From: Clostridia bacterium
GTDB taxonomy: Bacteria > Bacillota > Clostridia > Christensenellales > Borkfalkiaceae
DNA length: 64,000 bases
Reading direction: 5' to 3'
Assembly: GCA_017465145.1 (NCBI GenBank)
Contig: JAFTWU010000017.1
Coordinates: forward strand, 124,001 to 188,000
The notes beneath the pieces are model-generated. The model made no database searches, was not told where the DNA came from, and was given only the letters and a program-made list of their open reading frames with translations. Each line of letters begins with the position of its first letter. The stretch's first letter is position 1. The position numbers and the translations under genes are program-made. Shown in pieces: positions 21,837 through 58,912 of this stretch.

Positions 21837-21912
21837 CGGGGTGTAGCGCAGTTGGTAGCGCGCTTGCTTTGGGAGCAAGATGTCGGGAGTTCGAGTCTCT
21901 TCACCCCGACCA
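21837..21912 (+). tRNA. tRNA-Pro (anticodon UGG)
   Basis: Acceptor CGGGGTG pairs with CACCCCG, CCA is encoded. The anticodon stem CTTGC/GCAAG encloses TTTGGGA, giving UGG. T arm GGGAGTTCGAGTCTC is normal. Confidence 0.95.
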
Positions 21913-21944
21913 ACAAATTATGACGCATGTCTTCACAGTTTTAA

Positions 21945-22021
21945 GGGCCTTTAGCTCAGTTGGTTAGAGCGGTCGGCTCATAACCGATTGGTCCGCGGTT
22001 CGAGTCCGTGAAGGCCCACCA
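21945..22021 (+). tRNA. tRNA-Met (anticodon CAU), elongator type
   Basis: Acceptor GGGCCTT pairs fully with AAGGCCC, and CCA is encoded. Anticodon loop CTCATAA gives CAU. The paired first base and lack of three G-C pairs in the anticodon stem argue against the initiator. A lysidine-modified Ile tRNA cannot be fully excluded from sequence. Confidence 0.88.
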
Positions 22022-22047
22022 CTCAATTTAATCCTTAAAACATATTT

Positions 22048-22124
22048 GGCCCGGTAGTACAGATGGTTAGTACGCCAGCCTGTCACGCTGGAGGTCGAGG
22101 GTTCGAGCCCCTTCCGGGTCGCCA
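22048..22124 (+). tRNA. tRNA-Asp (anticodon GUC)
   Basis: Acceptor GGCCCGG pairs with CCGGGTC (one G.U), discriminator G and encoded CCA. Anticodon stem CCAGC/GCTGG encloses CTGTCAC, giving GUC. Confidence 0.95.
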
Positions 22125-22174
22125 AAAGATAAATGCTTGTAGATAATACAAGCATTTATCAAAAAACTTGATAT

Positions 22175-22250
22175 GCCTCGGTAGCTCAGTAGGTAGAGCA
22201 GGGGACTGAAAATCCCCGTGTCGGTGGTTCGATTCCGCCCCGAGGCACCA
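22175..22250 (+). tRNA. tRNA-Phe (anticodon GAA)
   Basis: Acceptor GCCTCGG pairs with CCGAGGC, with discriminator A and CCA encoded. Anticodon stem GGGGA/TCCCC encloses CTGAAAA, giving GAA. Its ACCA end matches the UGGU bulge of the pheST T-box in this window. Confidence 0.95.
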
Positions 22251-22272
22251 AGTTTTAACTTTTACACTCTTT

Positions 22273-22348
22273 GCTGGTGTAGCTCAACTGGCAGAGCAGC
22301 TGATTTGTAATCAGCAGGTTGCGGGTTCGATTCCAGTCACCAGCTCCA
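22273..22348 (+). tRNA. tRNA-Thr (anticodon UGU)
   Basis: Acceptor GCTGGTG pairs with CACCAGC, CCA is encoded. Anticodon stem GCTGA/TCAGC encloses TTTGTAA, giving UGU. Confidence 0.95.
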
Positions 22349-22389
22349 ATCGTATCCACTATCCCCTGTTGGTTTTTAATTTAATATAT

Positions 22390-22474
22390 GGGAAGGTTCC
22401 AGAGCGGCCAAATGGAACAGACTGTAAATCTGTCGTCAGTGACTTCGGTGGTTCGAATCCACCTCTTCCCACCA
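22390..22474 (+). tRNA. tRNA-Tyr (anticodon GUA)
   Basis: 85 bases, class II tRNA with a long variable arm. Acceptor GGGAAGG pairs with TCTTCCC (one G.U), CCA is encoded. Anticodon loop CTGTAAA gives GUA. It is the last tRNA of the operon and lies closest to the composition break of the K+ uptake island. Confidence 0.95.
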
Positions 22475-26308: not shown

Positions 26309-28405
26309 ATGCTTTTTCCCCTACCTAAAACGATAAATTTAACTAAAGACAAGCTATATTTTAACGGTATTAAAAATTCTAACTTGCTAAATGAATTTTT
26401 AAATGAAACAATGCGTGTTTATAACATTATGTCTGACATAAATAATGGTATAAACATTAATATATCACTAGATAATTGCTTAATAAAAAATGACGAGTAT
26501 ATTATTGAAATTAATAACAATATATTAATTAAGGGCGCAAATGAAAACGCTGTTAAAAAGGGCTTGTTTACCCTATTTGATTTGATTAAGGTTGAAGACG
26601 GCAGATATACTCTTTCAAAAGGCACTATACACGATTATGCATTTAAGCAAATGCGCGGTATTCACATTTACCTTCCCCCCGCTGACAGTATTGACGAGTG
26701 CAAAAGATTTTTATTCGCTTGCGCATCCCTTAAATACAATACCGTATTTTTAGAAATCGGCGGTGGTATGCAATATGACAAGCACCCAGAAATTAACGTT
26801 GCTTGGACTAAATTTTGCCGTGAAGTAGAGCGCTACCCCGAAGGGCCTTGGGGCTTGCAAGGTTCTGAAGCTTATTGGAAAGATAGCACGCATATTGAAC
26901 TTGCTGGCGGTAGTTTTTTAACAAAGGAACAAGTTAAAAACTTATGCAACTATATAGAAATGCTTGGTATGGAAGTTATACCCGAAATTCAAGCTTTATC
27001 CCACGCTTATTATCTAACGCTTGCCGATAATTCTATTGCCGAACGACCATACGAACAATACCCCGACACATATTGCCCTTCTAACGATAAAAGTTATGCA
27101 TTATACGAAGATTGTGCAACGGAAATTATAGAATTATTACATCCTAAAAAAGTTTCAATTGGACACGATGAAATTCGCGTTATTGGCGAATGCCCCTTAT
27201 GTAAAGATAAAAGCGGTGCTGAACTTTTAGCAATGGATATCAATCGCCTACATAATTTTTACAATAAACACAGCATAAAAGTATTTATGTGGGGTGAAAA
27301 ATTACAAAAATTCACCGATTATCGTGGCAATGAAACAGGTGGCACGGCTGAAAGTGAAATAATAGACGATTACGGCAGAAAATACTCTCTAAAAGAAACT
27401 TACGGCGCTATTGATATGATTCCAAAGGATATTACCATGCTAGATTGGTATTATTCACAAGGTTTTGCCACCGAAAAACAATTCAATGATAAAGGTTTTA
27501 ACGAAATCTTTGGCAATTTTGCCGGCTCTAAAATTCAAAAATGGCAAGAAAGAGCATCATCTCAAAACGTTTTAGGTGCGGAAGTTTCAACTTGGTGTAT
27601 TCCAAACGAATATGAACTAGGTTTTAACGGTTGGTTATATGAAATTGTATTTTCTTCTGCAGTTTTATGGCAAGATAATTACGATGACAATATGCGCGAC
27701 TCCTTTGCTCGCTCCACAGAAACACTCTTGCCAAGGGTTAGAAATATAATTAATTGTGGTATTCACCTATTTGACGGCACGTTAAATTCTTTAAATAACG
27801 TTTATAAAGGGAACGGTGAAAATCTAGATGCAATGCCAACAAATGAACAACCAAGTGTTGACCTTAAACTTGCTAAAGCTTTATCAAACGGCGGTTTAAC
27901 GGCAACAAATGGTGTAAAAATTGCTGAAAAAGCTAAAAACGTTGTCTTGTTCCACGCGGTAGAAAACGCCCCTACAAATCGAATTCAAACGTGGGCTTTT
28001 AAGGATAAATTAACTGAATTCCCTGCATCTTACGCCGTTGATTATGAAGATGGTTTAACAATTAGAATCCCCATTGAATTTCCCGTTATGGTTGGCAAAT
28101 TCGATTCATTGCCTACGTTTAGCCCCGTTGAAGACGGCGCTTTAATAAATGCAGACGTTGACGATAATAGAAAAGCAACTAATTTTACTGAATGCCCACT
28201 TGTACAAGCTGATGACGTATACCGCGATGCATCTTCTTATTTTTGCCGTATCGCCCGTTTTAACACTAAAAACGGTGAAAAAAGTGTGTTTGCTTATGAA
28301 TGGGTTAATCCAAGACCTAACGTAAAAATTACCACCATACGCAAGGTTAATGAAACGCGTAGCCCTATTGAATTATTATTCTTTGGCGCAGGTATAATCA
28401 AATAA
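26309..28405 (+). CDS. Glycoside hydrolase family 20 (beta-N-acetylhexosaminidase-like)
   Basis: 698 residues. An N-terminal alpha/beta domain (about 20-105) resembles the non-catalytic GH20b domain. The TIM-barrel follows from about residue 115 (MRGIHIYLPPAD). The acid pair Asp-Glu of the GH20 substrate-assisted mechanism is in VSIGHDEIRV. Downstream CPLCKDKSG gives two cysteines of unknown use. A C-terminal region (about 500-698) has no clear assignment. There is no signal peptide, so it should act on imported or recycled amino sugars in the cytoplasm. It stands alone, with its own promoter and a bidirectional terminator. The exact sugar is not known. Other amino-sugar genes (a GlmM fusion and its partner) lie 2 kb away. 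Confidence 0.85.
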   Translation: MLFPLPKTINLTKDKLYFNGIKNSNLLNEFLNETMRVYNIMSDINNGININISLDNCLIKNDEYIIEINNNILIKGANENAVKKGLFTLFDLIKVEDGRYTLSKGTIHDYAFKQMRGIHIYLPPADSIDECKRFLFACASLKYNTVFLEIGGGMQYDKHPEINVAWTKFCREVERYPEGPWGLQGSEAYWKDSTHIELAGGSFLTKEQVKNLCNYIEMLGMEVIPEIQALSHAYYLTLADNSIAERPYEQYPDTYCPSNDKSYALYEDCATEIIELLHPKKVSIGHDEIRVIGECPLCKDKSGAELLAMDINRLHNFYNKHSIKVFMWGEKLQKFTDYRGNETGGTAESEIIDDYGRKYSLKETYGAIDMIPKDITMLDWYYSQGFATEKQFNDKGFNEIFGNFAGSKIQKWQERASSQNVLGAEVSTWCIPNEYELGFNGWLYEIVFSSAVLWQDNYDDNMRDSFARSTETLLPRVRNIINCGIHLFDGTLNSLNNVYKGNGENLDAMPTNEQPSVDLKLAKALSNGGLTATNGVKIAEKAKNVVLFHAVENAPTNRIQTWAFKDKLTEFPASYAVDYEDGLTIRIPIEFPVMVGKFDSLPTFSPVEDGALINADVDDNRKATNFTECPLVQADDVYRDASSYFCRIARFNTKNGEKSVFAYEWVNPRPNVKITTIRKVNETRSPIELLFFGAGIIK

Positions 28406-30054: not shown

Positions 30055-30086
30055 AAGGATAGTGAAATTTCACTATCCTTTTTTTG
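30055..30086 (+). terminator. Terminator after ppa
   Basis: Perfect palindrome with arms AAGGATAGTGAAA / TTTCACTATCCTT (30055-30080) followed by a T run. Confidence 0.88.
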
Positions 30087-30187
30087 TGAAAATTTTTATC
30101 AAAAAATTTTTTAATGTATTTTTTTAATTACTTTCTAATTTAATCTTAAAAAATTAAAATTTATCATTTATAAAAATACATTTTCGC

Positions 30188-30226
30188 AACCAACAATTGA
30201 CAATTAATGTAAAGCAAAAATGGTTG
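30188..30226 (+). promoter_or_regulatory. Possible operator at the HTH-GlmM promoter
   Basis: CAACCA (30190-30195 region) and TGGTTG (30221-30226) form an inverted repeat that overlaps the -35 box of the fusion gene. The fused protein carries a DNA-binding domain, so autoregulation at a site like this is possible. The repeat is short and could be chance. Confidence 0.25.
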
Positions 30227-30252
30227 TTATAAATCATATATTATATTATACT
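30224..30252 (+). promoter_or_regulatory. Promoter of the HTH-GlmM operon
   Basis: TTGTTA (30224-30229), 17-base spacer, TATACT (30247-30252), 30 bases before the chosen start codon. Confidence 0.6.
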
Positions 30253-30282
30253 AGAAATACTTTTTTATAAATGGAGTTTATT

Positions 30283-31884
30283 ATGACTATAGGTGAAAAA
30301 ATCATAAAACTTAGACAAAAAAATGGCATATCACAAGAAAATTTAGCTTTTGAACTTGATGTTTCTAGGCAAGCTGTTTCAAGATGGGAAATGAATCAAT
30401 CAATCCCACAAGTTGAAAAAATTATAGAAATATGTAATTTTTTCAACATATCAACTGATGAGCTGTTAACAAATCAATGTATTAGTATTATTGATAAAAA
30501 ACAAAAAAATAAATATTTTGGAACTGACGGATTTAGAGGCAAGGCAAATATTAACCTAACATCTATGCACGCGTACAAAATTGGCAGATTCCTAGGTTGG
30601 TATTATTCCAAACAAAAACCGACAAACCATCGCTCTAAAATAGTTATAGGCAAAGATACAAGACGTTCAAGTTATATGCTTGAATATTCGTTAGTTGCAG
30701 GCATAACTGCTTCAGGAGCGGATGCATATATGCTACACGTAACTACAACGCCTAGCGTTTCATACGTTACACGCCAAGACGAGTTTGATTGTGGCGTTAT
30801 GATTACCGCTTCTCATAATCCTTATTTCGATAATGGAATTAAACTTATGAATAGCTTTGGAGAAAAAATCGATAATGAAACAATTTCACTTATTGAGGCA
30901 TACCTTGATGGTGATTTTAGAGCATTAAATATTACTGGAGAAGACTTGCCGTTTGCCACAGAAGAAAAATTAGGATTAATTGTCGATTATTCATCTGGAA
31001 GAAATAGATATATCGCCTATTTGATTGCGCTGGCATCTAGGTCTTTTAAAAACTTAAAAATTGCACTTGATTGCGCTAACGGTGCATCTTGGATGATAGC
31101 AAAATCCGTTTTTAGTGCTCTTGGTGCTCAAATAGATGTTATTGGAGCAAACCCTAATGGATTAAATATAAACGATAATTGCGGTTCAACAAACGTAAAC
31201 AAACTATGCAAACTAGTTAAAGAAAAACACTATGATTTAGGATTCGCATTTGATGGTGACGCAGATAGATGTATTGCAGTAGATAACAACGGTCACGTGG
31301 TTGACGGAGATATGATGCTTTACGTTTTAGCAAACAGATTAAAAGAAAGAGAAATGCTGAATAAAAACACTATAGTTACAACAATAATGTCGAATAGCGG
31401 TTTTATAGAAAGTCTTAAAACATCAGGAATAAATTGTGAACAAACTCAGGTTGGAGATAGATTTGTATACGAACTTATGCAAGATAAAGATTATAGTTTA
31501 GGTGGCGAACAATCAGGTCATATTATTATAAAAAAATATGCTACAACTGGTGATGGCATTTTAACAGCAATAATGATAACGGAAGAAGTTTTAGAATCAA
31601 AAACAACTCTTTCAGCACTTACTGCACCTGTTAAACTTTTTCCGCAATATTTATTAAATGTAAAAGTTAAAGATAAAACGAGCGTTTTAAATGATGAATC
31701 CGTAATTTTAGCAACAAGTATAGTTGAAAATAAAATAAATAAAAGAGGTAGGGTCTTATTAAGAGAAAGTGGAACTGAACCTATAATTAGAATTATGGTA
31801 GAATGTGAAGACGAAGAACTTTGCAAACAATACGCTAAAGAAATTGAAGAGTCAATTATCTTAGGGGGGTACAAAGTTGAATAA
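30283..31884 (+). CDS. XRE helix-turn-helix domain fused to phosphoglucosamine mutase (GlmM-like)
   Basis: 533 residues from ATG 30283. An ATG four codons earlier is rejected because its GGAG is the ribosome site of this start. Residues about 4-61 are a complete XRE/Cro-C1 helix-turn-helix (SQENLAFELDVSRQAVSRWE). A lysine-rich linker follows (about 62-77). From residue 78 the protein is a full phosphohexomutase of GlmM type: FGTDGFRG, the phosphoserine loop TASHNP (Ser about 177), metal loop FDGDADR (about 323-329), sugar loop GEQSGH (about 408-413) and phosphate loop RESGTEP (about 494-500). All catalytic motifs are intact. GlmM converts glucosamine-6-phosphate to glucosamine-1-phosphate. 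The fusion suggests an enzyme that also regulates transcription. The reading frame is continuous through the junction. It overlaps the next gene by 8 bases. Confidence 0.9.
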   Translation: MTIGEKIIKLRQKNGISQENLAFELDVSRQAVSRWEMNQSIPQVEKIIEICNFFNISTDELLTNQCISIIDKKQKNKYFGTDGFRGKANINLTSMHAYKIGRFLGWYYSKQKPTNHRSKIVIGKDTRRSSYMLEYSLVAGITASGADAYMLHVTTTPSVSYVTRQDEFDCGVMITASHNPYFDNGIKLMNSFGEKIDNETISLIEAYLDGDFRALNITGEDLPFATEEKLGLIVDYSSGRNRYIAYLIALASRSFKNLKIALDCANGASWMIAKSVFSALGAQIDVIGANPNGLNINDNCGSTNVNKLCKLVKEKHYDLGFAFDGDADRCIAVDNNGHVVDGDMMLYVLANRLKEREMLNKNTIVTTIMSNSGFIESLKTSGINCEQTQVGDRFVYELMQDKDYSLGGEQSGHIIIKKYATTGDGILTAIMITEEVLESKTTLSALTAPVKLFPQYLLNVKVKDKTSVLNDESVILATSIVENKINKRGRVLLRESGTEPIIRIMVECEDEELCKQYAKEIEESIILGGYKVE

Positions 31885-32542
31885 CATAAAAACAAAAAAA
31901 TTAATTGATTTAAATAATACTTTTTTAGATTTAACATTTGAGCAATTTGAATATCCTTGGGAAATTTTACCAAATATAAATTCAATTATATTAAAAATAT
32001 TAGAAAATCCACCAAAAAACTATACCTTACTTAAAGACGGCATTTTAATTGGTAAAAATGTTAAAATAAGCAATACAGCAACCATACTTCCACCTGTAAT
32101 TATCGGGGACAATACAGAAATTAGGCATTGTGCATATTTAAGAGGTAACGTTATATTATTAAATAATTGCGTAGTTGGAAATTCATGCGAACTTAAAAAC
32201 GCAATATTATTTAATGATGTGCAAGTTCCACACTTCAACTATGTTGGCGATTCAATTCTTGGAAATCACTCACATTTAGGCGCAGGAGTTATATGTTCTA
32301 ATTTAAAAACAGACAAGAAAAATATAATAATTAAGACAGACTCAATGCATATTGAAACAAAGTTAAGAAAATTTGGTTGTATTATTGGCGATGGTGTTGA
32401 AGTGGGCTGTAATTCCGTATTAAACCCAGGAACAATAATATGTAAAAATTCAAGAATCTATCCCTTAACAAACGTCCGAGGCGTCATTGCTGAAGAACTA
32501 ATAGTAAAATCAATGCAAAATATTGTAAAAATTGACGACTAA
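31877..32542 (+). CDS. Left-handed beta-helix acyltransferase-like protein, UDP-GlcNAc pathway
   Basis: 221 residues. After an N-terminal segment with FEYPWEILPNI, the protein is a hexapeptide-repeat beta-helix (about residues 55-205), with ATILPPVIIGDNTEIRH, VGNSCELKNAIL, VQVPHFNYVGDSILG, HLGAGVICSN and EVGCNSVLNPGTII. Clostridial relatives are commonly named UDP-N-acetylglucosamine pyrophosphorylase, and the helix resembles the acetyltransferase half of GlmU. However, no nucleotidyltransferase domain is present, so uridylyl transfer is not supported; acetylation of glucosamine-1-phosphate is the more likely activity. It overlaps the HTH-GlmM gene by 8 bases, so the product of one enzyme would feed the other. 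A terminator follows. Confidence 0.78.
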   Translation: MNNIKTKKLIDLNNTFLDLTFEQFEYPWEILPNINSIILKILENPPKNYTLLKDGILIGKNVKISNTATILPPVIIGDNTEIRHCAYLRGNVILLNNCVVGNSCELKNAILFNDVQVPHFNYVGDSILGNHSHLGAGVICSNLKTDKKNIIIKTDSMHIETKLRKFGCIIGDGVEVGCNSVLNPGTIICKNSRIYPLTNVRGVIAEELIVKSMQNIVKIDD

Positions 32543-48650: not shown

Positions 48651-50456
48651 TCAATTAATATTTACCAAAACACAGAATGAATTAGGCTGTAAATTAATGC
48701 GTTTATTATACGATTTTTCAGTTAATAAATCGGTTAAATATCCATCAAAAGATAATTGTATATCACTAGTTGAAAGATTTACAGCAATCAACAATTCGGC
48801 ATCATCATTGAAACGTTTGAAAACGTATACACCTTTACTTTTGTATATTTCTTCAAAATTTCCATCGCTAAATACTGAATATTCGCACCTAATTTTGCCA
48901 AGTTTTTTATAAAATGAAAGCAAATCTTCGTCAATATTGTCCCAAGTGAAATAGGTGCGGTTAAGCGGGTCTTTAGCCCCTTGCATACCAATTTCATCAC
49001 CGTAATAAACGCTAGGAACACCGCACAACGTATAACTTAGAATAGATGCAACTTTTGCCTTAGTTTTTGCTAAATTATATTGATTTTGGTCAAGTTTAAC
49101 GTTAGCCATTTGAGATTTAGTCATACTAGCATAATCCACGTCTGAAACAGCAGTTAAAAGCCTAAAAGTATCGTGTGTGGCAAGCAAGTTCATTAAAGAG
49201 TTCAAAACAAAACTTGGGTAGTGGTCAATTTGTTCTTTAATAGTATATGAAAGAGTTTCAACTTCTCCATTTTTCACAAAACTCAAAATAGCTTTTTTAA
49301 GCGGATAGTTCATAACGGAATCAAGTTCTTTACCAATAAAATATTTACGCCTTACGTCATATGCTATTTTATTAGATGCATCTTCCCAAACTTCGCCAAT
49401 TATAATCGCATCTTTATTCTTGCGTTTTGCGGCAGAGCGAATTTTTTCAACGAAATGTGCAGGCAATTCATCAACAACGTCTAAACGCCACCCACCTATG
49501 CCGAGTGAAGAATATTTTTCTATAACGCCGTCTTTTCCCGTGATATATTCAATAAAACCCGAATTTTCACTTTTATTTGTTGCGGGTAACGTCTTAATTC
49601 CCCACCAACTTTCGTATTTATTTGGATAATTTTTGAAGTTAAACCATTCTATATACGGGGAGTTTTCGCTTTGATATGCACCGACGCTATCGTATCTTCC
49701 ATACTTATTAAAATACAAACTATCGTCGCCGGTATGATTGAATACACCGTCTAAAATAATTTTAATACCCTTTTTGTCGGCAGAGTTAATCAAAGATTTC
49801 AAATCGTTTTCATCGCCTAAAAGACTGTCAATTTGCATATAATCGCCCGTATCGTAACGGTGATTAGAGTATGATTTAAATATAGGATTAAGATAAATTA
49901 TAGTAACGCCAAGTTCACTTAAATAGTCTAATTTTTGCTCTATTCCCTTAAGGTCTCCGCCAAAAAAGTCGTTGTTTTGCACAACGCCTTTTTCATCTGG
50001 CAAAAAGATAGGCGCGTCATTTTTGTTGGCGTGAATAAATCTTTCCGTCTTTCCAATATTTTCACCCGAACTATTAAACCTATCGGGAAAAATTTGATAA
50101 ATTATCCCGCCCTTAAACCATTGTGGAACAGTATAATCTTCGTTATAAACGGATAACTGAAAATTGCTTGGATTATAAGTTATTTCACCACAAAATTTAT
50201 CGTTTAAGCCAACGTATTTACCATTAAGTAGGTCGAATTTATACCAAAACAAACCACTTTCGCAAAAGGTGTGGGATAATTCAAAATAATCACCCATATT
50301 TTGCATAGGCAATCGCATTTCTTCGTTAGAAAAATCTTTATTGCACACAAAAAGTACAGAGTCAAAATTACCTTTGACTCTGAACGTTACGGTTGTGCCA
50401 CGTTTTATAGCACCCGTTGTACTTTTATAAAATTTATCTAATGGATTATAAATCAT
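48651..50456 (-). CDS. Glycoside hydrolase family 13, neopullulanase/alpha-glucosidase-like
   Basis: 601 residues. An N-terminal beta-sandwich domain (about 1-115) comes before the TIM barrel that opens with GGIIYQIFPDRFN. GH13 conserved regions are LDGVFNHTGD (region I), GWRLDVVDEL with the nucleophile Asp (II), IIGEVWEDA with the acid Glu (III) and LLATHDTFR (IV). No signal peptide, so it works in the cytoplasm, probably on malto-oligosaccharides or glycogen branches left by phosphorylase. It is the last gene of the glycogen operon, 20 bases after glgP. Its exact bond specificity cannot be decided. I see no clear terminator after it. Confidence 0.9.
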   Translation of the reverse strand: MIYNPLDKFYKSTTGAIKRGTTVTFRVKGNFDSVLFVCNKDFSNEEMRLPMQNMGDYFELSHTFCESGLFWYKFDLLNGKYVGLNDKFCGEITYNPSNFQLSVYNEDYTVPQWFKGGIIYQIFPDRFNSSGENIGKTERFIHANKNDAPIFLPDEKGVVQNNDFFGGDLKGIEQKLDYLSELGVTIIYLNPIFKSYSNHRYDTGDYMQIDSLLGDENDLKSLINSADKKGIKIILDGVFNHTGDDSLYFNKYGRYDSVGAYQSENSPYIEWFNFKNYPNKYESWWGIKTLPATNKSENSGFIEYITGKDGVIEKYSSLGIGGWRLDVVDELPAHFVEKIRSAAKRKNKDAIIIGEVWEDASNKIAYDVRRKYFIGKELDSVMNYPLKKAILSFVKNGEVETLSYTIKEQIDHYPSFVLNSLMNLLATHDTFRLLTAVSDVDYASMTKSQMANVKLDQNQYNLAKTKAKVASILSYTLCGVPSVYYGDEIGMQGAKDPLNRTYFTWDNIDEDLLSFYKKLGKIRCEYSVFSDGNFEEIYKSKGVYVFKRFNDDAELLIAVNLSTSDIQLSFDGYLTDLLTEKSYNKRINLQPNSFCVLVNIN

Positions 50457-50476
50457 ATTATTAAACGATAAATTAT

Positions 50477-52900
50477 TTACTTAATACTCTTTAAGCCCCA
50501 AATATTGTTTGCATAATCGCGAATACTTCTATCTGCAGCAAAAATACCTGCCGTTGCAATGTTATTAAGGCTCTTTTTAGCCCAAGCCATTTTGTCAAGA
50601 TATACTTCGTCTACTTTAGCGTGGATATTATAGAAAGAACCAAAGTCAGCTAAGCACATATATGGGTCTGCAACGGGATGACCGGTTAATAAGTAACGCG
50701 CAATATCTTCAAAAGTTTGACCTGCAAAGCCGTGATTTAACGCTGCTATAACCTTATCTAACTTACGATTGTTAGTATAATAAGAAGATGCATTATAGCC
50801 ATGTGCCCAAAGTTTTTCAACTTCTCTAGCCGTTAGACCAAAGATAAAGATGTTATCTTTGCCACAAACTTCTTGCATTTCAACGTTTGCACCGTCAAGC
50901 GTACCGATAGTTAAAGCGCCGTTTATCATAAACTTCATGTTACCCGTACCACTTGCTTCTTTACCTGCTTGAGAAATTTGTTCACTAATTTCCGTTGCCG
51001 GCATAAGTTTTTCAGCCATAGAAACACAGTAATCTTCTAAATAAATTACGTTTAATTTTTGATTAATTTTTGGGTTGCGCCTTATATCTTCACTTAAGCA
51101 ACAAATCAATTTAATAATTTGTTTAGCAAAATAATACCCAGGTGCTGCCTTTGCGCCAAAAATAAAGGTCTTAGGCGTCATTTCCATATCGGGATTTTCT
51201 TTAAGTTCGTTATAAAGCGAGATGATATATAACGCGTTAAGAAGTTGACGTTTATATTCGTGCATGCGTTTTGCTTGAACGTCGAAGATAGAATTTGGGT
51301 CTAAAACGTAGCCTTGCTTTTTGCTTACGAATTCACAGAATTGTTCTTTCTTTATGCGCTTAATTTTATTTAATTCAGTTAAAACGGTCTTATCGTCTTC
51401 ATACTTTTTGAATTTAATTAATTCACTTGCATCCTTAACGAATCCGTTGCCGATACAATCGGTTAAAAGTGAAGTAAGTTCTGGGTTAGATTGACATAGC
51501 CAACGTCTATGTGCGATACCGTTAGTTACGTTAGTAAACTTTTCAGGGAAAACGTCATAGAAATCCTTGAAAATACTATTTTTAATAATATCACTATGAA
51601 GTGCTGAAACGCCGTTAACTGTATGTGATGCAACGACTGACAAGTTAGCCATCCTAATTTGGTTATGAGAGAAAATACTCATTCTGTCAATCTTATCCCA
51701 ATCGCCCGGGAATTTATCCCACATTTGACCGCAGAAACGTTGGTTAATTTCTCTTAAAATGGTGTAAATCCTAGGTAATCTTCTTTGAATTAAGTCTTCG
51801 CTCCATTTTTCAAGCGCTTCACTCATAACGGTGTGGTTGGTGTATGCAACGGTTTTGGTGACGATATACCAAGCATCGTCCCAAGAATAGCCGTTTTCAT
51901 CAATTAAAATACGCATAAGTTCGGGTATACAAAGTGCGGGGTGCGTATCGTTAATATGAATTGCAGCCTTTTCGGGAAGTGTTGAGAGTGAGCCGTATCT
52001 CTTTTTATGGTCTTGTAAAATATCTTGAAGAGCGGCAGAAACCAACAAATATTGTTGTTTCAATCTTAACGATTTACCTTCAAAGTGGTTATCTGAGGGG
52101 TATAAAACCTTAGAAATAAGTTCTGCTTCATTATCTTCTTGCATACTGCGCATATAATCGCCTTGAGAGAAGGTTTTCATATCGAAATCGCGTATGTTTT
52201 GCGCTTTCCAAAGACGTAAAACTGAAACAGCTTCGCTATCTTTACCAGAAATCATCATATCGTATGCAACTGCTTCAATTTCTTTAGCGTCAACGTGTTC
52301 TACTTTTAAGCCTTGGTCGGTCCAATATTCTTTAACGTAACCGTCAAACTTAATTTTATAGGTTTTATCCATACGTTGAGTAAGCCAAACTTCACCACCC
52401 GGCAACCAAATGTCAGGCAATTCCATTTGCCAACCATCAACGATTTTTTGTTTAAATAAACCGTATTCATAACGGATTGAATAACCCATTGCGGGATAAT
52501 TTCCGCTAGCCAATGCATCCATAAAACAAGCGGCAAGTCTACCTAAACCACCGTTACCAAGACCTGCGTCTGGTTCAATTTCATATAAATCTTCTAAACT
52601 GCAGTTAAATTCTTTTTTAAGCGCAGCGTTAAAAGCATCTTGTATGCTTAGGTTATAAGTATTGTTTTTAAGTGATTGACCAAGCAAAAATTCCATACAA
52701 AGATAGTAAACGCGTTTACCACCTTGAGTACGATATTTTTTGTTAAATGCGCTACGCTTTTCCAATAAAATATCCCTAACGCACATAACAACTGCTTTAT
52801 AAATTTGTTCTTTATTTGCTTCGGCGGGGGTTACGCCAAAATATTTTGAAAGTTTGCTCTTGATAAGTGAAAGAGCGTCTTTTTCTGTCATTTGAGCCAT
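50477..52900 (-). CDS. glgP: Glycogen/maltodextrin phosphorylase
   Basis: 807 residues, GT35. EASGTGNMKFMINGALT includes the PLP lysine, and MEFLLGQSLKNN and DAGLGNGGLGRLAACFMDA are family blocks. It releases glucose-1-phosphate from the non-reducing ends of glucan. It is encoded between glgA and the GH13 hydrolase, so breakdown and synthesis genes share one operon. Control is then likely at enzyme level, but this is inference. Ribosome site AGGAG lies close to the start. Confidence 0.96.
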   Translation of the reverse strand: MAQMTEKDALSLIKSKLSKYFGVTPAEANKEQIYKAVVMCVRDILLEKRSAFNKKYRTQGGKRVYYLCMEFLLGQSLKNNTYNLSIQDAFNAALKKEFNCSLEDLYEIEPDAGLGNGGLGRLAACFMDALASGNYPAMGYSIRYEYGLFKQKIVDGWQMELPDIWLPGGEVWLTQRMDKTYKIKFDGYVKEYWTDQGLKVEHVDAKEIEAVAYDMMISGKDSEAVSVLRLWKAQNIRDFDMKTFSQGDYMRSMQEDNEAELISKVLYPSDNHFEGKSLRLKQQYLLVSAALQDILQDHKKRYGSLSTLPEKAAIHINDTHPALCIPELMRILIDENGYSWDDAWYIVTKTVAYTNHTVMSEALEKWSEDLIQRRLPRIYTILREINQRFCGQMWDKFPGDWDKIDRMSIFSHNQIRMANLSVVASHTVNGVSALHSDIIKNSIFKDFYDVFPEKFTNVTNGIAHRRWLCQSNPELTSLLTDCIGNGFVKDASELIKFKKYEDDKTVLTELNKIKRIKKEQFCEFVSKKQGYVLDPNSIFDVQAKRMHEYKRQLLNALYIISLYNELKENPDMEMTPKTFIFGAKAAPGYYFAKQIIKLICCLSEDIRRNPKINQKLNVIYLEDYCVSMAEKLMPATEISEQISQAGKEASGTGNMKFMINGALTIGTLDGANVEMQEVCGKDNIFIFGLTAREVEKLWAHGYNASSYYTNNRKLDKVIAALNHGFAGQTFEDIARYLLTGHPVADPYMCLADFGSFYNIHAKVDEVYLDKMAWAKKSLNNIATAGIFAADRSIRDYANNIWGLKSIK

Positions 52901-52918
52901 AATTTCTCCTAAAAAGTA

Positions 52919-54601
52919 TTAAATATTGTAAATTTTTTCGTATTCGCCTGCCTGAACTTTCCAAGAAAAATCAGTAGTAATCGCCCTATTTTGAACGTCT
53001 TTCCAAGCGTCTTCGTTTTTAAATGTTCTTATTGCTTCGTTAATAACGTAAAGCATATCGTGTGCGTTATAATCGTGGAAAGTAAAGCCGTTACCCTTAA
53101 CGCCCGTATACGCTTTAATACTATCGTTTAAGCCACCCGTTTCTCTAACAACGGGAACGGTACCGTATCTGCTTGCAATCATTTGAGATAAACCGCAAGG
53201 TTCCATTTTAGAAGGCATTAAGAAAATATCTGCACCAGAATAAATTTTTCTAGATAAATCCTGATTAAATTCTATAATGGTAACGCATTTACCCTTAAAG
53301 CAATTTGCAACGTGGGTAAAATAGTTTTCATAAGACGTTTCTCCCGTGCCTAAAATTACAATTTGGATATCTTGTGATAAAAGCGTTTCAATTGTTGCGC
53401 GCAAAAGGTCTAAACCTTTATGAGAAACAAGCCTTGAAATAACCGCTAAAACGGGAACGTCTGCCCTTACGGGTAGCCCTAAAAGTTTTTGTAAGCCCGC
53501 CTTACATTCAGCCTTACCCGACAAATCGTTTGCCGAATAGTTTTTGAAAAGGAATTTATCAGTTTCGGGATTATAATAATCAACGTCTATACCGTTTAAT
53601 ATACCGTATAATTTATGACTATTTTTACGAATAATGTTTTCCAAACCGTGAGCAAAGAAAGAGTCTTTAATTTCTTCAGCATACGTTGGGCTTACGGTAG
53701 AAACGATATCGGTCATTTCGATAGCGGCTTTCATTAAGTTAACGTTACCGTCAAATTCAACGAATTGCTCAATAGCTTGTGGAAAACCGAAAATATCGCC
53801 GTAGCAATACATATTGAATATACCTTGATATTCTATATTATGAATTGTAAAAATTGACTTAATTTTTGCAAATTTTGCATCGTTATAATACATACCTTTA
53901 AGGTATACGATAGATGCGGCTGTTTGCCAATCGTTACAATGCAATATATCAGGATAAATATCAAGCCTTGCAATAGTGTCTAGAGCTGCGCGAGAAAAGA
54001 AAGCAAATCTTTCGCCGTCATCATAGAACCCGTAAATATTGCCTTCGCGCTTAAAGTAATATTCGTTATCTAAGAAATAGAATTTCACCCCTTCGTATTC
54101 ACAGTAAAACACGCCACAATATTGTGAACGCCAAGAAACTGAAACGTTAAAGCTTGTTAAAAACTTAAACTTTTCCTTAAATTCCGGCTTAATTTTGCTA
54201 TACATAGGCAAAATAACGCTAACGTCTAAATTGCCGTTTTTAGCAAGTGCTTTAGGAAGTGAACCTAAAACGTCTGCTAAACCACCCGTTGCAATAAAGG
54301 GTGCTGCTTCAGAACCCAAAAATACCACCTTTTTCTTTTCAGAAACGGTAATTTTAGGCAATTTTGCAGTAGTTTTAGTTGCGGTTTTTTTAGCAACCGT
54401 TGATTTTTTTGTCGTTGCTTTTGTAGTAGAACTAGAAGTGGTTTTCTTAGTTGTTACTTTTTTAGCCGTAGTTTTTGAAGTAGTGGCTTTAGCAGTTACT
54501 TTCTTTTCGCTAGATTTCTTAACCGTAGCCTTTTCTTCAGTTGCTTTAGCGGTTACTTTTTTAGTTTCGGGCGCTAAAGTAGTTTCAGATTTTTTTGCCA
54601 T
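52919..54601 (-). CDS. glgA: Glycogen synthase with long lysine/threonine-rich N-terminal tail
   Basis: 560 residues; the catalytic GT5 part begins near residue 89 (KKKVVFLGSEAAPF). The first 80 residues are a low-complexity tail with 23 Lys and about 24 Thr by hand count, in repeats such as TTAKKVTTKKTTS and KATTKKS. The nucleotide-sugar loop reads IATGGLADV where most synthases have KTGGL, so the usual Lys is Ala. SKMEPCGLSQMIASRYG and ETGGLNDS near the C terminus are standard. It adds glucose from ADP-glucose to glucan. The tail may bind nucleic acid, polyphosphate, glycogen or another protein; its use is unknown. Start: the ATG follows a GGAG site at 8 bases; inner Met starts that would remove the tail are not seen. 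Confidence 0.94.
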   Translation of the reverse strand: MAKKSETTLAPETKKVTAKATEEKATVKKSSEKKVTAKATTSKTTAKKVTTKKTTSSSTTKATTKKSTVAKKTATKTTAKLPKITVSEKKKVVFLGSEAAPFIATGGLADVLGSLPKALAKNGNLDVSVILPMYSKIKPEFKEKFKFLTSFNVSVSWRSQYCGVFYCEYEGVKFYFLDNEYYFKREGNIYGFYDDGERFAFFSRAALDTIARLDIYPDILHCNDWQTAASIVYLKGMYYNDAKFAKIKSIFTIHNIEYQGIFNMYCYGDIFGFPQAIEQFVEFDGNVNLMKAAIEMTDIVSTVSPTYAEEIKDSFFAHGLENIIRKNSHKLYGILNGIDVDYYNPETDKFLFKNYSANDLSGKAECKAGLQKLLGLPVRADVPVLAVISRLVSHKGLDLLRATIETLLSQDIQIVILGTGETSYENYFTHVANCFKGKCVTIIEFNQDLSRKIYSGADIFLMPSKMEPCGLSQMIASRYGTVPVVRETGGLNDSIKAYTGVKGNGFTFHDYNAHDMLYVINEAIRTFKNEDAWKDVQNRAITTDFSWKVQAGEYEKIYNI

Positions 54602-54673
54602 TAAATAAATCTCCTTAAAATATCAATTCTATCATTTGCCCTTATAGATATTAAGAAAATAAATTTCAATTTG

Positions 54674-55786
54674 TTAAATCATAATGCCTTTGCCAACGTA
54701 GAAGGGATGATTTTCACTGCCGGAAAGCACCTTCTTATCGGTAATAGTAACGTTTTTATCAGCGATAATGCAATTTAGTGAACAGTTTTCGCCAAGAACG
54801 GTGTTTTGCATTATGATACTATTTTTAACTTTTGTGCCACGCGCAACTTTTACGTTACGGAAAATAATACTGTTTTCTACTTCGCCTTCGATAACGCAAC
54901 CGTCGGCAATCATAGAATTAACTACTTTTGCATTGTGACCGTATTTTGTAGGAGCGGAGTCACGAATCTTGGTAAATACACTTCTATCACCAAAAATTTC
55001 GTGTCTATTGTTTTCGTCAAGTAATGCTAAGTTGCTATCGTAGAACGCTTGAAGAGACGTTATGCCCGCATAGAAACCCGTGTGTTCATAACCCATAATC
55101 TTCATACTCTTAAGGTTGCCTGCAACAACGTCTGCCATAAAGTGCTTTTTGTTGTGGCTTATTGCATCCATAACTATATTTTGTAAGAGTGATTTTTTCA
55201 AAACGAATACGTTAATAAATACGTTTGCCTTTTCATCACTAACTTCAGCAACTTGGTTAATACCAACGATACGGTTATCAACCATATCAAAAGTAATTGC
55301 GCTTTCTTCTGCTCCGTGGTCAGGCATACATTTTTTATAAACTAATGTAATATCTGCACGGTTGCGAATATGAGCTTCGATAACGTCGTTATAATTAATT
55401 CTGCTTACAGAATCACAGTCGGTCATAACAACGTAATCTTCGTCTGCACGGAATAAGAAGTTAGTAATACCCTTTAACGCTTCTAGTCTAGAAGTGTAAA
55501 GATTTTTACTACTGTTATCGCCAAAAGGTGGAAGAATAATAACACCACCGTCTTTTCTTGCTAAGTCCCAATCTTTACCACTACCAACGTGGTCGATTAA
55601 AGATTGATAGTTGCTTTTTGTAATAATACCAACGGTATCTATACCAGAGTTAACCATATTTGAAAGCGGAAAGTCTATAAGACGATATCTGCCACCAAAA
55701 GGAATTGAACCTAAAGTTCTAATTCTTACAAGTTCTGGAACGTTATTGTCGTGTATATTAGAGAAAATAATGCCAACTGCTTTCAT
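54674..55786 (-). CDS. glgD: Glucose-1-phosphate adenylyltransferase, GlgD subunit
   Basis: 370 residues. It has the nucleotidyltransferase fold and a C-terminal beta-helix (NSMIADGCVIEGEVENSI), but the GGxGxRL catalytic loop of GlgC is absent: the start reads AVGIIFSNIHDNNVPELV. In Bacillota GlgD is a regulatory partner that raises the activity of GlgC. It follows glgC by 2 bases, so balanced synthesis of both subunits is likely. Confidence 0.95.
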   Translation of the reverse strand: MKAVGIIFSNIHDNNVPELVRIRTLGSIPFGGRYRLIDFPLSNMVNSGIDTVGIITKSNYQSLIDHVGSGKDWDLARKDGGVIILPPFGDNSSKNLYTSRLEALKGITNFLFRADEDYVVMTDCDSVSRINYNDVIEAHIRNRADITLVYKKCMPDHGAEESAITFDMVDNRIVGINQVAEVSDEKANVFINVFVLKKSLLQNIVMDAISHNKKHFMADVVAGNLKSMKIMGYEHTGFYAGITSLQAFYDSNLALLDENNRHEIFGDRSVFTKIRDSAPTKYGHNAKVVNSMIADGCVIEGEVENSIIFRNVKVARGTKVKNSIIMQNTVLGENCSLNCIIADKNVTITDKKVLSGSENHPFYVGKGIMI

Positions 55787-55788
55787 TT

Positions 55789-56991
55789 TTATTTATCCTC
55801 CCTTTTAACGTCTTTATCTATGATAGTGCCACCGATAACTGAAGCGCCGTCTTCAACGGTAATATCTCTACCAAGAAGTGCTATACCCTTGCCTTCAGCC
55901 TTAGCGTTACCAATTTTTGCGTTTTTGCCGATAACGGTACGTTCGTCAATAATTGAATATTCAACAACAGCACCTTCGCCTATCGTAACGTCTGACATAA
56001 TAATACTGTTTTTAACAACAGCGCCTTTACCAATAATTACACTACTTGCTAAAACTGAATTTTCAAGCGTACCTTCAATTTCACAACCAGACATTATAAT
56101 AGAATTGTCTATTTTAGCGTTGTCGCCAATATAGTGTGGGGGTGCCAACGGGCTTCTAGATTGAATTTTCCAAGACGTATCACTAACGTCAAACACGGGA
56201 TTATCGCCAAGCAAGTCCATATTTGCTTCGTAAAGAGAATCAACCGTACCAACGTCTTTCCAATAGCCCTTAAATTCATAAGCCATCATTTTTGCGCCAT
56301 CAGCAAGCATCTTAGGTAATACGTCTTTACCAAAGTCGTTAGAAGAATTGGGGTTTTTGCTATCTTCTTCTAAATATTTATACAATTTCTTTGCAGAGAA
56401 AATGTAAATACCCATTGATGCAAGTGTTGACTTGGGTTTTTTGGGTTTTTCTTCAAATTCGTAAATACTACCATCGGGGTTAGTATTTAAGATACCAAAA
56501 CGTGATGCTTCTTCTATAGGAACGTTAATTGCCGCGATAGTGCAATCTGCGTTATTTGCCCTATGATAGTTAAGCATTATAGAATAGTTCATTTTATAAA
56601 TGTGGTCGCCAGATAACACCAAAACGTAATCTGGGTCAAACTGTTGTAAGAAGTGCAAGTTTTGATAGATTGCGTTTGCCGTACCTTTATACCAGTCAGA
56701 AGAGTGTTTACCTTGATATGGTGACAAAATATGTACACCACCAAACGCTCTGTCTAAGTCCCACGGTTGACCGTTACCGATATAATCGTTAAGAACTAAA
56801 GGTTGATATTGCGTAAGAACACCAACGGTGTCTATACCAGAGTTTACACAGTTAGAAAGCGGAAAGTCGATAATTCTATACTTACCGCCAAACGAAACAG
56901 CCGGTTTAGCAATATTGTTAGTCAAAGCATATAATCTGCTACCTTGACCGCCTGCAAGTAACATTGCAACGCATTTCTTCTTCCTTATCAT
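55789..56991 (-). CDS. glgC: Glucose-1-phosphate adenylyltransferase, GlgC subunit
   Basis: 400 residues. [13 protein letters not shown] is the catalytic nucleotide loop, [17 protein letters not shown] the sugar-binding region, and [14 protein letters not shown] the metal-binding part; a hexapeptide beta-helix ends the chain. It makes ADP-glucose and pyrophosphate from glucose-1-phosphate and ATP, the committed step. It forms a mixed enzyme with GlgD. The pyrophosphate is removed by the enzyme encoded at 29483. Confidence 0.97.
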
Positions 56992-57010
56992 GTTAAATCT
57001 CCTTAATATA

Positions 57011-58912
57011 TCAATTGGTTTTTACCAAATATATCCCTGTAAATCTTGGCAAAGTAAGTAAAATAGAATTATCTTTGCCGTGGGCCTGTTTTTTTGCCGT
57101 TTTAACGGTTTTGCGCCTTACTAAACCGCGACCGCCGAACCTTTTATCGTCAGTACAAAGTATCATTTTATAAACACCTTTATCGGCGCCAAGACGATAA
57201 TTCATATAGTCGTTGCCAGAAAAGTTTAACAATACTATAACTTCTCTACCTTCTTTATCTTTTCTAACAAAAGAAATTATATTGTTATCCTTTTCATCGG
57301 CGGAAATCCACTTAAATCCGTCCCAAGAATCTTCAATTTCAAAAAGCGCGGGAGTAGATTTATAAATATCGTTTAATTGTTTATTAAACGTCCAAAGTTT
57401 TTTATGTAATTCAAATTTAAGCATAAAAAACTCTAAACCTTCTTTTTCGTTCCACTCTTTAAACTGACCGTATTCGTTACCCATAAAAGAAAGTTTTTTA
57501 CCTGGGTGCGCGTACATATACGCGTTAAAAGTCCTTAAATTTGCAAACTTTGTGGGTATATCGCCCGGCATCTTATCTAAAAGGGATTTTTTGCCGTGAA
57601 CTACTTCGTCGTGAGAAATAGGTAAAATATAATTTTCGCTAAAAGCGTAAAACATTGAAAAAGTTATCTTGTTGTGATTATAAGAACGGAAATAAGGGTC
57701 ACATTTCATATAATCTAAAACGTCGTTCATCCAACCCATATTCCACTTGTAGTTAAAGCCTAAGCCACCATCGTGAACGGGTTTTGTCATAAGGGGAAAA
57801 GAAGTAGATTCTTCTGCAATCATTAAAACGTTAGGGAATTTTTCAAATATTGTCTTGTTTAACTTTTTGAAAAATTCTATTGCTTGAATATTATAGTTTC
57901 CGCCTTCTTCATTAGGCGTCCACTCACCGTTTTCCCTGTCGTAATCTAAGTAAAGCATTGATGCAACGGCGTCTACACGAAGACCGTCTAAATGGTATTT
58001 TTCAAGTAAGAATATTGCACTAGAGATTAAAAAGCATTGAACTTCATTTCTACCCCAGTCGAACATACGCGTGCCCCAAGTGGGATATTCTTTGCGGTGT
58101 GGGTGGCTATTTTCATAACAACACGTGCCGTCAAATTCGTAAAGCCCGTGTTCATCTTTTGGAAAATGTGCGGGAACCCAATCTAAAATTACGCCAATAC
58201 CGTTTTTATGTAAGGTATCCACTAGATACATAAAGTCTTTTGGTGTACCAAAGCGTGAAGTTATAGAATAATAGCCCGTAACTTGATAACCCCAAGAACC
58301 GTCAAACGGATATTCGGTAAGTGGCATAAACTCTACGTGGGTATATCCCATATCTAAAATATATTTTACAAGTTCAACCGCATATTCACGATAGGTATAA
58401 TAGTTGCCGTCATCGTGTTTTTTCCAAGACGCAAGGTTAACTTCGTAAATATTTATGGCTTTATCATATGGCGCTTTTTTGTTTTTGATATAATTTTCGT
58501 CGCCCCATTTATAGCCGTCGATATTATAAATTTTAGATGCCGTTCTTGAAGGCGTTTCACTATGGAAAGCATAAGGGTCTGCCTTAAGAACGGTTTTATT
58601 TTTATGTTTTATGGCAAATTTATATGCATCGAACTCATCTAACCCTTCAACGAATACTTCAAAAATACCGCCGTTAGAAATTCTTTGCATAACGTTAGCG
58701 TTGATATCCCAACAGTTAAAGTCGCCCACAACGGAAACCTTGCTTGCTTTTGGCGCCCAAGTGCGAAAAACAACGCCTTTTTTACCGTTTTGCTTGCAAA
58801 AATGCGCACCTAAATAATCAAAGGCACGATAATTTGTTCCTTGATGGAAAAGATAAATTGGTAAATCAGCATTATCTATTACTGAATTGTTAGCGACTTT
58901 TGTTTTTGACAT
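57011..58912 (-). CDS. glgB: 1,4-alpha-glucan branching enzyme
   Basis: 633 residues. N-terminal CBM48 domain (about 35-125) then GH13 barrel: [16 protein letters not shown] (region I), [15 protein letters not shown] with the nucleophile (II), IAEESTSFP (III) and [14 protein letters not shown] (IV). It moves glucan chains to alpha-1,6 branches. It is the second gene of the operon, 31 bases after pgi and 19 before glgC. The C-terminal beta domain ends with a basic segment rich in Arg and Lys. Confidence 0.96.

Follow-up and report, generated by a model that had tools for sequence, protein, structure and literature searches.

A phosphoglucosamine mutase with an XRE-type DNA-binding domain in Clostridia, a probable regulator of its own operon

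The 64,000-nt stretch of DNA analysed here (the window) encodes an XRE-type helix-turn-helix (HTH) domain joined in one chain to a complete phosphoglucosamine mutase (GlmM), and comparison with related loci indicates that this is probably an active GlmM doubling as the transcription regulator of its own operon. Four results of the sequence comparison carry this reading: the fusion recurs within a single clade of mutases; a palindrome, O1, occupies a steady place in the promoters of the fused genes; O1 and the HTH tend to occur together; and the strict form of O1 is nearly unique to the fused operon in the genomes that carry it.

The fused gene is a single uninterrupted open frame at 30283-31884 on the forward strand, coding for 533 amino acids from an ATG at 30283 to a stop at 31882-31884; another ATG at 30271 overlaps the likely ribosome-binding site, which makes 30283 the likelier start. 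The preliminary description had read an XRE HTH and a full GlmM in one frame, and the profiles bear this out: Pfam HTH_3 matched residues 7-61 with 55.5 bits (gathering cut-off 23), PGM_PMM I-IV matched residues 77-523 of the same protein, all above their own cut-offs, and the GlmM profile TIGR01455 scored 512.4 bits (cut-off 447.55) over its positions 1-440 of 442. The active-site loops that had been listed as intact are all present (TASHNP, FDGDADR, GEQSGH and RESGTEP), and we take them to be the serine, metal, sugar and phosphate loops of GlmM, respectively; when 17 sequences including the window protein are aligned, the four loops are mostly invariant, with exceptions such as FDGDCDR, GEQTGH and SGTEA/SGTES in L011, L061 and L116. 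In the window gene, codons 1 to 95 offer an in-frame ATG, GTG or TTG only at residues 1, 37 and 95, so that no usual start lies between the HTH and the mutase, and from a usual start the window mutase would come only as a fusion product. In the relatives L010, L041, L061 and L063, however, the two parts have an in-frame GTG, TTG or ATG between them. Coordinates of the gene and its surroundings are collected in Table 1.

Table 1. Features of the fused glmM gene and its flanks in the window
Feature	Position	Strand	Basis and remarks
Terminator-like hairpin past the upstream pyrophosphatase gene	30055..30080	+	11 pairs and a T tail; consensus scan gave 3 in the region vs 1.0 in shuffles
O1, degenerate copy of GCAAC-N5-GTTGC (GCAACCAACAATTGA, 8/10)	30186..30200	.	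Motif score; candidate site
-35 hexamer TTGTTA, 23 nt past O1	30224..30229	+	Consensus match only; 15 in the region vs 16.2 in shuffles
-10 hexamer TATACT, 17 nt past -35	30247..30252	+	Consensus match only, with the same chance-level caution as for -35
GGAG, likely ribosome-binding site, 6 nt before ATG 30283	30273..30276	+	Read from the sequence
XRE/HTH_3 DNA-binding domain, residues 1-62	30283..30468	+	Pfam, alignment; recognition region VSRQAVSRWEMNQ
Linker, residues 63-76	30469..30510	+	Variable in sequence and length within the clade: 13-22 residues (alignment columns 63-84)
Complete GlmM with its four PGM/PMM domains (residues 77-533) and the stop	30511..31884	+	Pfam, TIGR01455, structure alignment
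Hexapeptide (LbH) acyltransferase resembling the C-terminal half of archaeal-type GlmU	31877..32542	+	Profiles; overlaps the glmM end

In the window genome (G000, 1.51 Mb, 94% complete) the fused protein is the only GlmM found, and the check for a second, unfused glmM proposed in the preliminary description revealed none there, the next TIGR01455 match reaching 69.2 bits, far under the cut-off. Exactly one GlmM above the cut-off was present in 10 of the 13 fused genomes that were searched with the profile (out of 28). The genome G066 has two, both fused (L046 and L144), while G062 has a second, unfused GlmM, unlike the first and placed beside glmS on a 7-kb contig, which is possibly a contamination, and the fused gene of G069 is truncated, with a score under the GlmM cut-off.

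The combined genus, order and class scans yielded 29 fused loci in 28 genomes, the window included, from at least nine families as labelled in the scans; the carriers belong to the Clostridia, and many come from animal guts. Of 37 genomes of the window genus, 24 contained a match with E 1e-60 or better, fused in three and unfused with 40-44% identity in 21, a pattern that would fit if a transferred fused gene had replaced the native one. Matches starting from residue 1 were obtained in 3 of 396 genomes over the order (E <= 1e-110) and in 15 of 391 over the class (E <= 1e-190), the window genome counted in both, at cut-offs that would miss weaker fused forms. Locus L139, taken as fused from a stop-to-stop frame call, was ruled out on reading its sequence. 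A chimeric assembly or a frame break, the worry voiced in the preliminary description, is extremely improbable as an explanation: the genomes with the fusion are mostly draft assemblies from metagenomes, which might favor such an artefact, but the frame is unbroken and the search for the same architecture elsewhere brought 28 further fused loci in 27 other assemblies, all in one clade. In a tree of 50 mutase domains this clade comprised all 29 fused members and five HTH-less ones with a support of 100/100; it needs five changes of the HTH state, at least four of them forced by well-supported branches, and is best read as the outcome of a single fusion followed by several losses of the HTH. The HTH-less proteins L043 and L176 still start with residues resembling the start of the HTH.

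The first hint of an inverted repeat came from the sequences upstream of the initial 13 fused loci, and the repeat was formulated as O1, GCAAC-N5-GTTGC. Among the first 15 loci it was complete (10/10) in nine and reached 9/10 in one, L011 being scored over a longer upstream stretch (420 nt), chosen once a genome search had revealed its site. Random 220-nt stretches of the loci (n = 2000), which may include true O1 sites themselves, scored 10/10 in 14 cases, 9/10 in 12 and 8/10 in 122. Fourteen loci fetched later from the class scan, which had not been used to find O1 but are related to the first loci and not independent of them, carried it at 10/10 in 13 cases and at 9/10 in one, in every case 90-123 nt ahead of the start codon; among 2800 mononucleotide shuffles of these test loci none reached 10 and one reached 9, and the two HTH-less sisters in the test set had 6/10. 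For an XRE/HTH_3 autoregulator a palindrome in its own promoter would be expected. O1 of at least 9/10 was present at 24 of the 29 fused loci of the clade (the window itself has only 8/10), against 2 of 88 HTH-less rows (L043 and L118, both 9/10, none at 10). The spans searched were up to 260 nt for the fused loci (with L011 taken before its GlmS remnant and L144 at -239) and up to 300 nt for the HTH-less rows, which contain one gene twice (L105 and L145) and include L139, with L176 and L177 being extra; 22 of the 88 were scored separately, none of them above 8. A motif scan with a variable gap was discarded: it gave 12/12 in four fused loci, yet the HTH-less L027, L035 and L043 reached 11/12, in L027 and L035 by matches with a 2-nt gap at -261 and -241 which score 6/10 with the fixed 5-nt core.

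The window copy of O1 has a score that was equalled or exceeded by 148 of the 2000 random stretches (7%) and is weak on its own, because chance reaches it often. The window as a whole contains 20 sites with up to three mismatches against 12.7 expected, which was equalled by 4 of 100 shuffles, so that the window alone proves nothing about the motif. The placing of a binding region at 30150-30270 in the preliminary description has therefore to be divided: relatives do carry a candidate site there, at a constant promoter position, but the window copy is degenerate. The other fused loci below 9/10 are L010, the nearest relative of the window, and L071, both with 8/10 at other positions only, and L041 and L046 with 7/10. 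These five loci, together with L043, which keeps a 9/10 O1 without an HTH, speak against autoregulation. The five fused loci might also be explained if the HTH was a hitch-hiker, fused yet unused for DNA binding at least in the window genome, where as in L010, L041, L046 and L071 a good site was not seen. This is improbable, given that the pairwise identity averaged over 14 fused proteins is 62% for the HTH vs 68% for the mutase, that the recognition helix varies little across the aligned fused proteins and that O1 tracks the HTH. The domain could also have been retained for stability or localisation.

The hairpin upstream of the window promoter separates the pyrophosphatase gene from the fused gene and suggests that transcription of the latter begins independently. 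In 17 of the 24 promoters with O1, the best pair of hexamers, scored with no shuffle control within an offset of 20-23 nt and a spacer of 16-18 nt, has the -35 located 22 or 23 nt past O1 and a 17-nt spacer, which puts the O1 centre near -65. The distance in the window is that of 8 of the 24 relatives, six of them sharing its spacer. In all 14 test loci the best GTTGGTTG match (6 to 8 of 8) starts 16-18 nt past O1; its second TTG is the -35, and its first TTG with an upstream CAA resembles a weaker copy of O1 near -43 (O2). The O2 pattern CAA-N6-GTTG, picked after the sequences had been seen, fits in at least 5 of 7 positions in 20 of the 24 promoters, with a mean of 5.75; for 1000 shuffles the mean was 2.8 and none exceeded 3.4. 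A good O2 is absent in L040, L042, L061 and L167, and the window O2 is poor as judged by eye; both observations add to the points against autoregulation.

Within the clade the site mostly disappeared with the domain: four of the five HTH-less members have O1 at 5-6/10 and L043 has the above-mentioned 9/10, the association of HTH and site (24 of 29 vs 1 of 5) having a Fisher p of 0.012 with no correction for descent. In L046 (genome G066), both the recognition helix and O1 are changed in comparison with the close relative L040; the ratio of nonsynonymous to synonymous changes between the two is 0.30 in the HTH (8 and 8 differences) and 0.06 in the mutase, as uncorrected counts from this one pair. 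The second fused copy of G066, L144, has an intact helix, so the same genome carries a fused GlmM with changed helix and site (L046:4001-4200) and another with the intact helix (L144:531-730).

The strict form of O1, GCAACYNNNRGTTGC, occurs in 28 places in the 28 fused genomes (a reversed control pattern in 3), and 22 of these places, in 22 genomes, coincide by coordinates with the fused operon; six fused genomes, the window genome among them, lack it, and it was not found in two HTH-less sister genomes. Three of the six off-operon places are situated up to about 200 nt upstream of XRE-type genes (L093:1501-1515, L184:1501-1515 and L180:1501-1515), L093 being HTH_3 by profile and L184 and L180 being read as XRE-type by eye. 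L093 and L184 share the SRQxxSKWE helix, which suggests that the palindrome may be a general operator of this type of recognition helix in Clostridia. A search of the 28 fused genomes with the strict pattern turned up no wider regulon. With one mismatch allowed many more scattered sites appeared, and the reversed control climbed too; one of them, before glmS in G062, was set aside because it belongs to the 7-kb contig with the unlike second GlmM. By its sites the fused protein looks like a near single-target regulator with its own operon as the candidate target, weaker sites elsewhere being possible. The claim of the preliminary description that the protein may switch genes is strengthened by an intact, fused and sole GlmM and by a candidate DNA site in relatives, and is narrowed to the protein's own operon.

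An acyltransferase gene follows the fused gene in 25 of the 28 fused loci with downstream DNA, the window included (it is absent in L039, L061 and L166), and likely codes for the GlcN-1-P N-acetyltransferase, as judged by its profiles. The third gene of the operon is nagB in 8 of 28 and glmS in 2 of 28, some of the stretches being too short to show it. In the genome G016 a GlmS remnant persists between the palindrome and the fused glmM (L146, reverse strand, ~1314-1610), a frame of 99 residues with parts of both GlmS ends. Full-length GlmS above the cut-off was detected in 11 of 28 fused vs 34 of 46 chosen HTH-less genomes, a difference with an uncorrected Fisher p of 0.006 that ignores descent and genome completeness, and the absence of GlmS as a driver of the fusion is only suggestive. 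NagB above the cut-off was present in 12 of 14 fused genomes. The window genome has NagB and a SIS-domain protein which is similar to NagB-II and to the isomerase half of GlmS and stays under both cut-offs; a stand-alone SIS-domain protein like the GlmS isomerase half is encoded at L107 (G000:C16:6289-7344), with similar matches in several genomes of the genus without full GlmS. The glmS ribozyme (RF00234) was not found in 12 of 13 fused genomes, G000 included, and was found in G064, with a positive B. subtilis control. Elsewhere in the window, a GH20-type glycosidase gene (26309-28405), three genes upstream, could free amino sugars; relatives of it were not seen at the compared loci, many of which span only 1.5 kb. 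A glycogen/starch-type cluster (48651-58912) includes amylase domains, a phosphorylase, two nucleotidyltransferase-LbH proteins and a branching-enzyme-like protein, and six tRNA genes are clustered at 21837-22471.

According to the available text of PMC8573169, GlmM of B. subtilis dimerises via domain 1. With the HTH presumably placed at the N-terminus of this domain, a dimer of the fused protein would expose two HTHs, which fits the demand of a palindrome. From the sequences we infer that the protein is active as a mutase, binds DNA physically and makes use of O2: the HTH pair would bind O1, centred at about -65, and perhaps the weaker O2 before the -35, centred at about -43 and two helix turns apart, and this binding would determine how strongly glmM and the acetyltransferase gene are expressed, along with nagB or glmS where one of these belongs to the operon. 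Activation and repression seem about equally probable as its sign. What such a regulator would read is a separate matter. It has an even chance of being a plain concentration autoregulator, in which the HTH reads the amount of GlmM with no ligand sensing and the catalytic state is irrelevant; the near single-target site agrees with this, and so does a linker varying in length and sequence, which does not suggest tight coupling. On the other hand, its partners nagB and glmS share GlcN-6-P with GlmM, which would make sensing useful, albeit this is not a direct argument. An effect of active-site occupancy on DNA binding is possible and is proposed tentatively. Equally tentative is a metabolite-gated switch, in which substrate binding or closure of domain 4 would change the presentation of the two HTH domains and couple the supply of amino-sugar phosphates to transcription of the operon: the mutase residues are intact, nagB or glmS takes the third place in 10 of 28 loci, and the usual control point is often absent, since searches detected no full-length GlmS in 17 of the 28 fused genomes and no ribozyme in 12 of 13. 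Against it, full-length GlmS was also not found in 7 of 11 HTH-less genomes of the window genus, many of which are incomplete. The most detailed version is rather unlikely: occupancy by amino-sugar phosphates would gate cooperative HTH binding at -65/-43, giving an autoactivation similar to that at lambda PRM or a repression of UDP-GlcNAc supply, with an active essential enzyme as a single-promoter factor where GlmS and its ribozyme have often been lost.

The closest comparisons differ in which part they share with the fused GlmM. The XRE-type dimers of lambda CI bind in tandem at its own promoter PRM and can activate it. The predicted tandem dimer sites at about -65 and -43 resemble this arrangement, while lambda CI is without an enzyme. 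PutA and BirA combine an active enzyme and a DNA-binding domain in one chain, with known ligand control. Catalytic residues and a DNA-binding domain are likewise found in one chain of the fused GlmM, but the enzyme and the DNA-binding domain are different ones, and its ligand control is hypothetical. Bacterial GlmM structures (3pdk, 7ojr, 6gyz) have the same mutase with four domains and the same active-site loops; their chains are without the HTH and align from about residue 68-76 of the fusion, near their own start. The stand-alone XRE regulators L093 and L184 have the same helix type and the same palindrome before their own genes, no GlmM match being reported in L093. BzdR, as described in the available text of PMC3602430, carries an XRE HTH on a shikimate-kinase-like domain which lost catalysis and senses benzoyl-CoA. 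The order of an N-terminal XRE HTH, a linker and a metabolic-enzyme domain is common to both; in contrast to BzdR, the fused GlmM keeps its active-site residues, is usually the only GlmM copy found and has the GlmM fold, its C-terminal part in the window being PGM_PMM I-IV and not a shikimate-kinase-like domain of the BzdR type. Titles and abstract openings of open-licence papers did not point to an HTH-GlmM fusion. The fusion of an enzyme with an HTH is of a known kind, and the HTH-GlmM form with its O1 palindrome appears to be new within this literature.

The origin of regulators from enzymes that gained DNA-binding domains is widely held and has been addressed by few experiments, as stated in the available text of PMC3602430, whose authors constructed a chimera of this kind and concluded that the enzyme activity had to be lost. 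The fused GlmM contrasts with this: its active-site residues are kept, it has a clear candidate DNA target, and the HTH was lost several times, mostly along with that target. Both the evolution from enzyme to regulator and the self-control of the early peptidoglycan steps can be tested here with one gene and one short promoter. If the most detailed reading, with gated cooperative binding at -65/-43, is true, the fused GlmM would represent a long-lived natural intermediate between an enzyme and a regulator.
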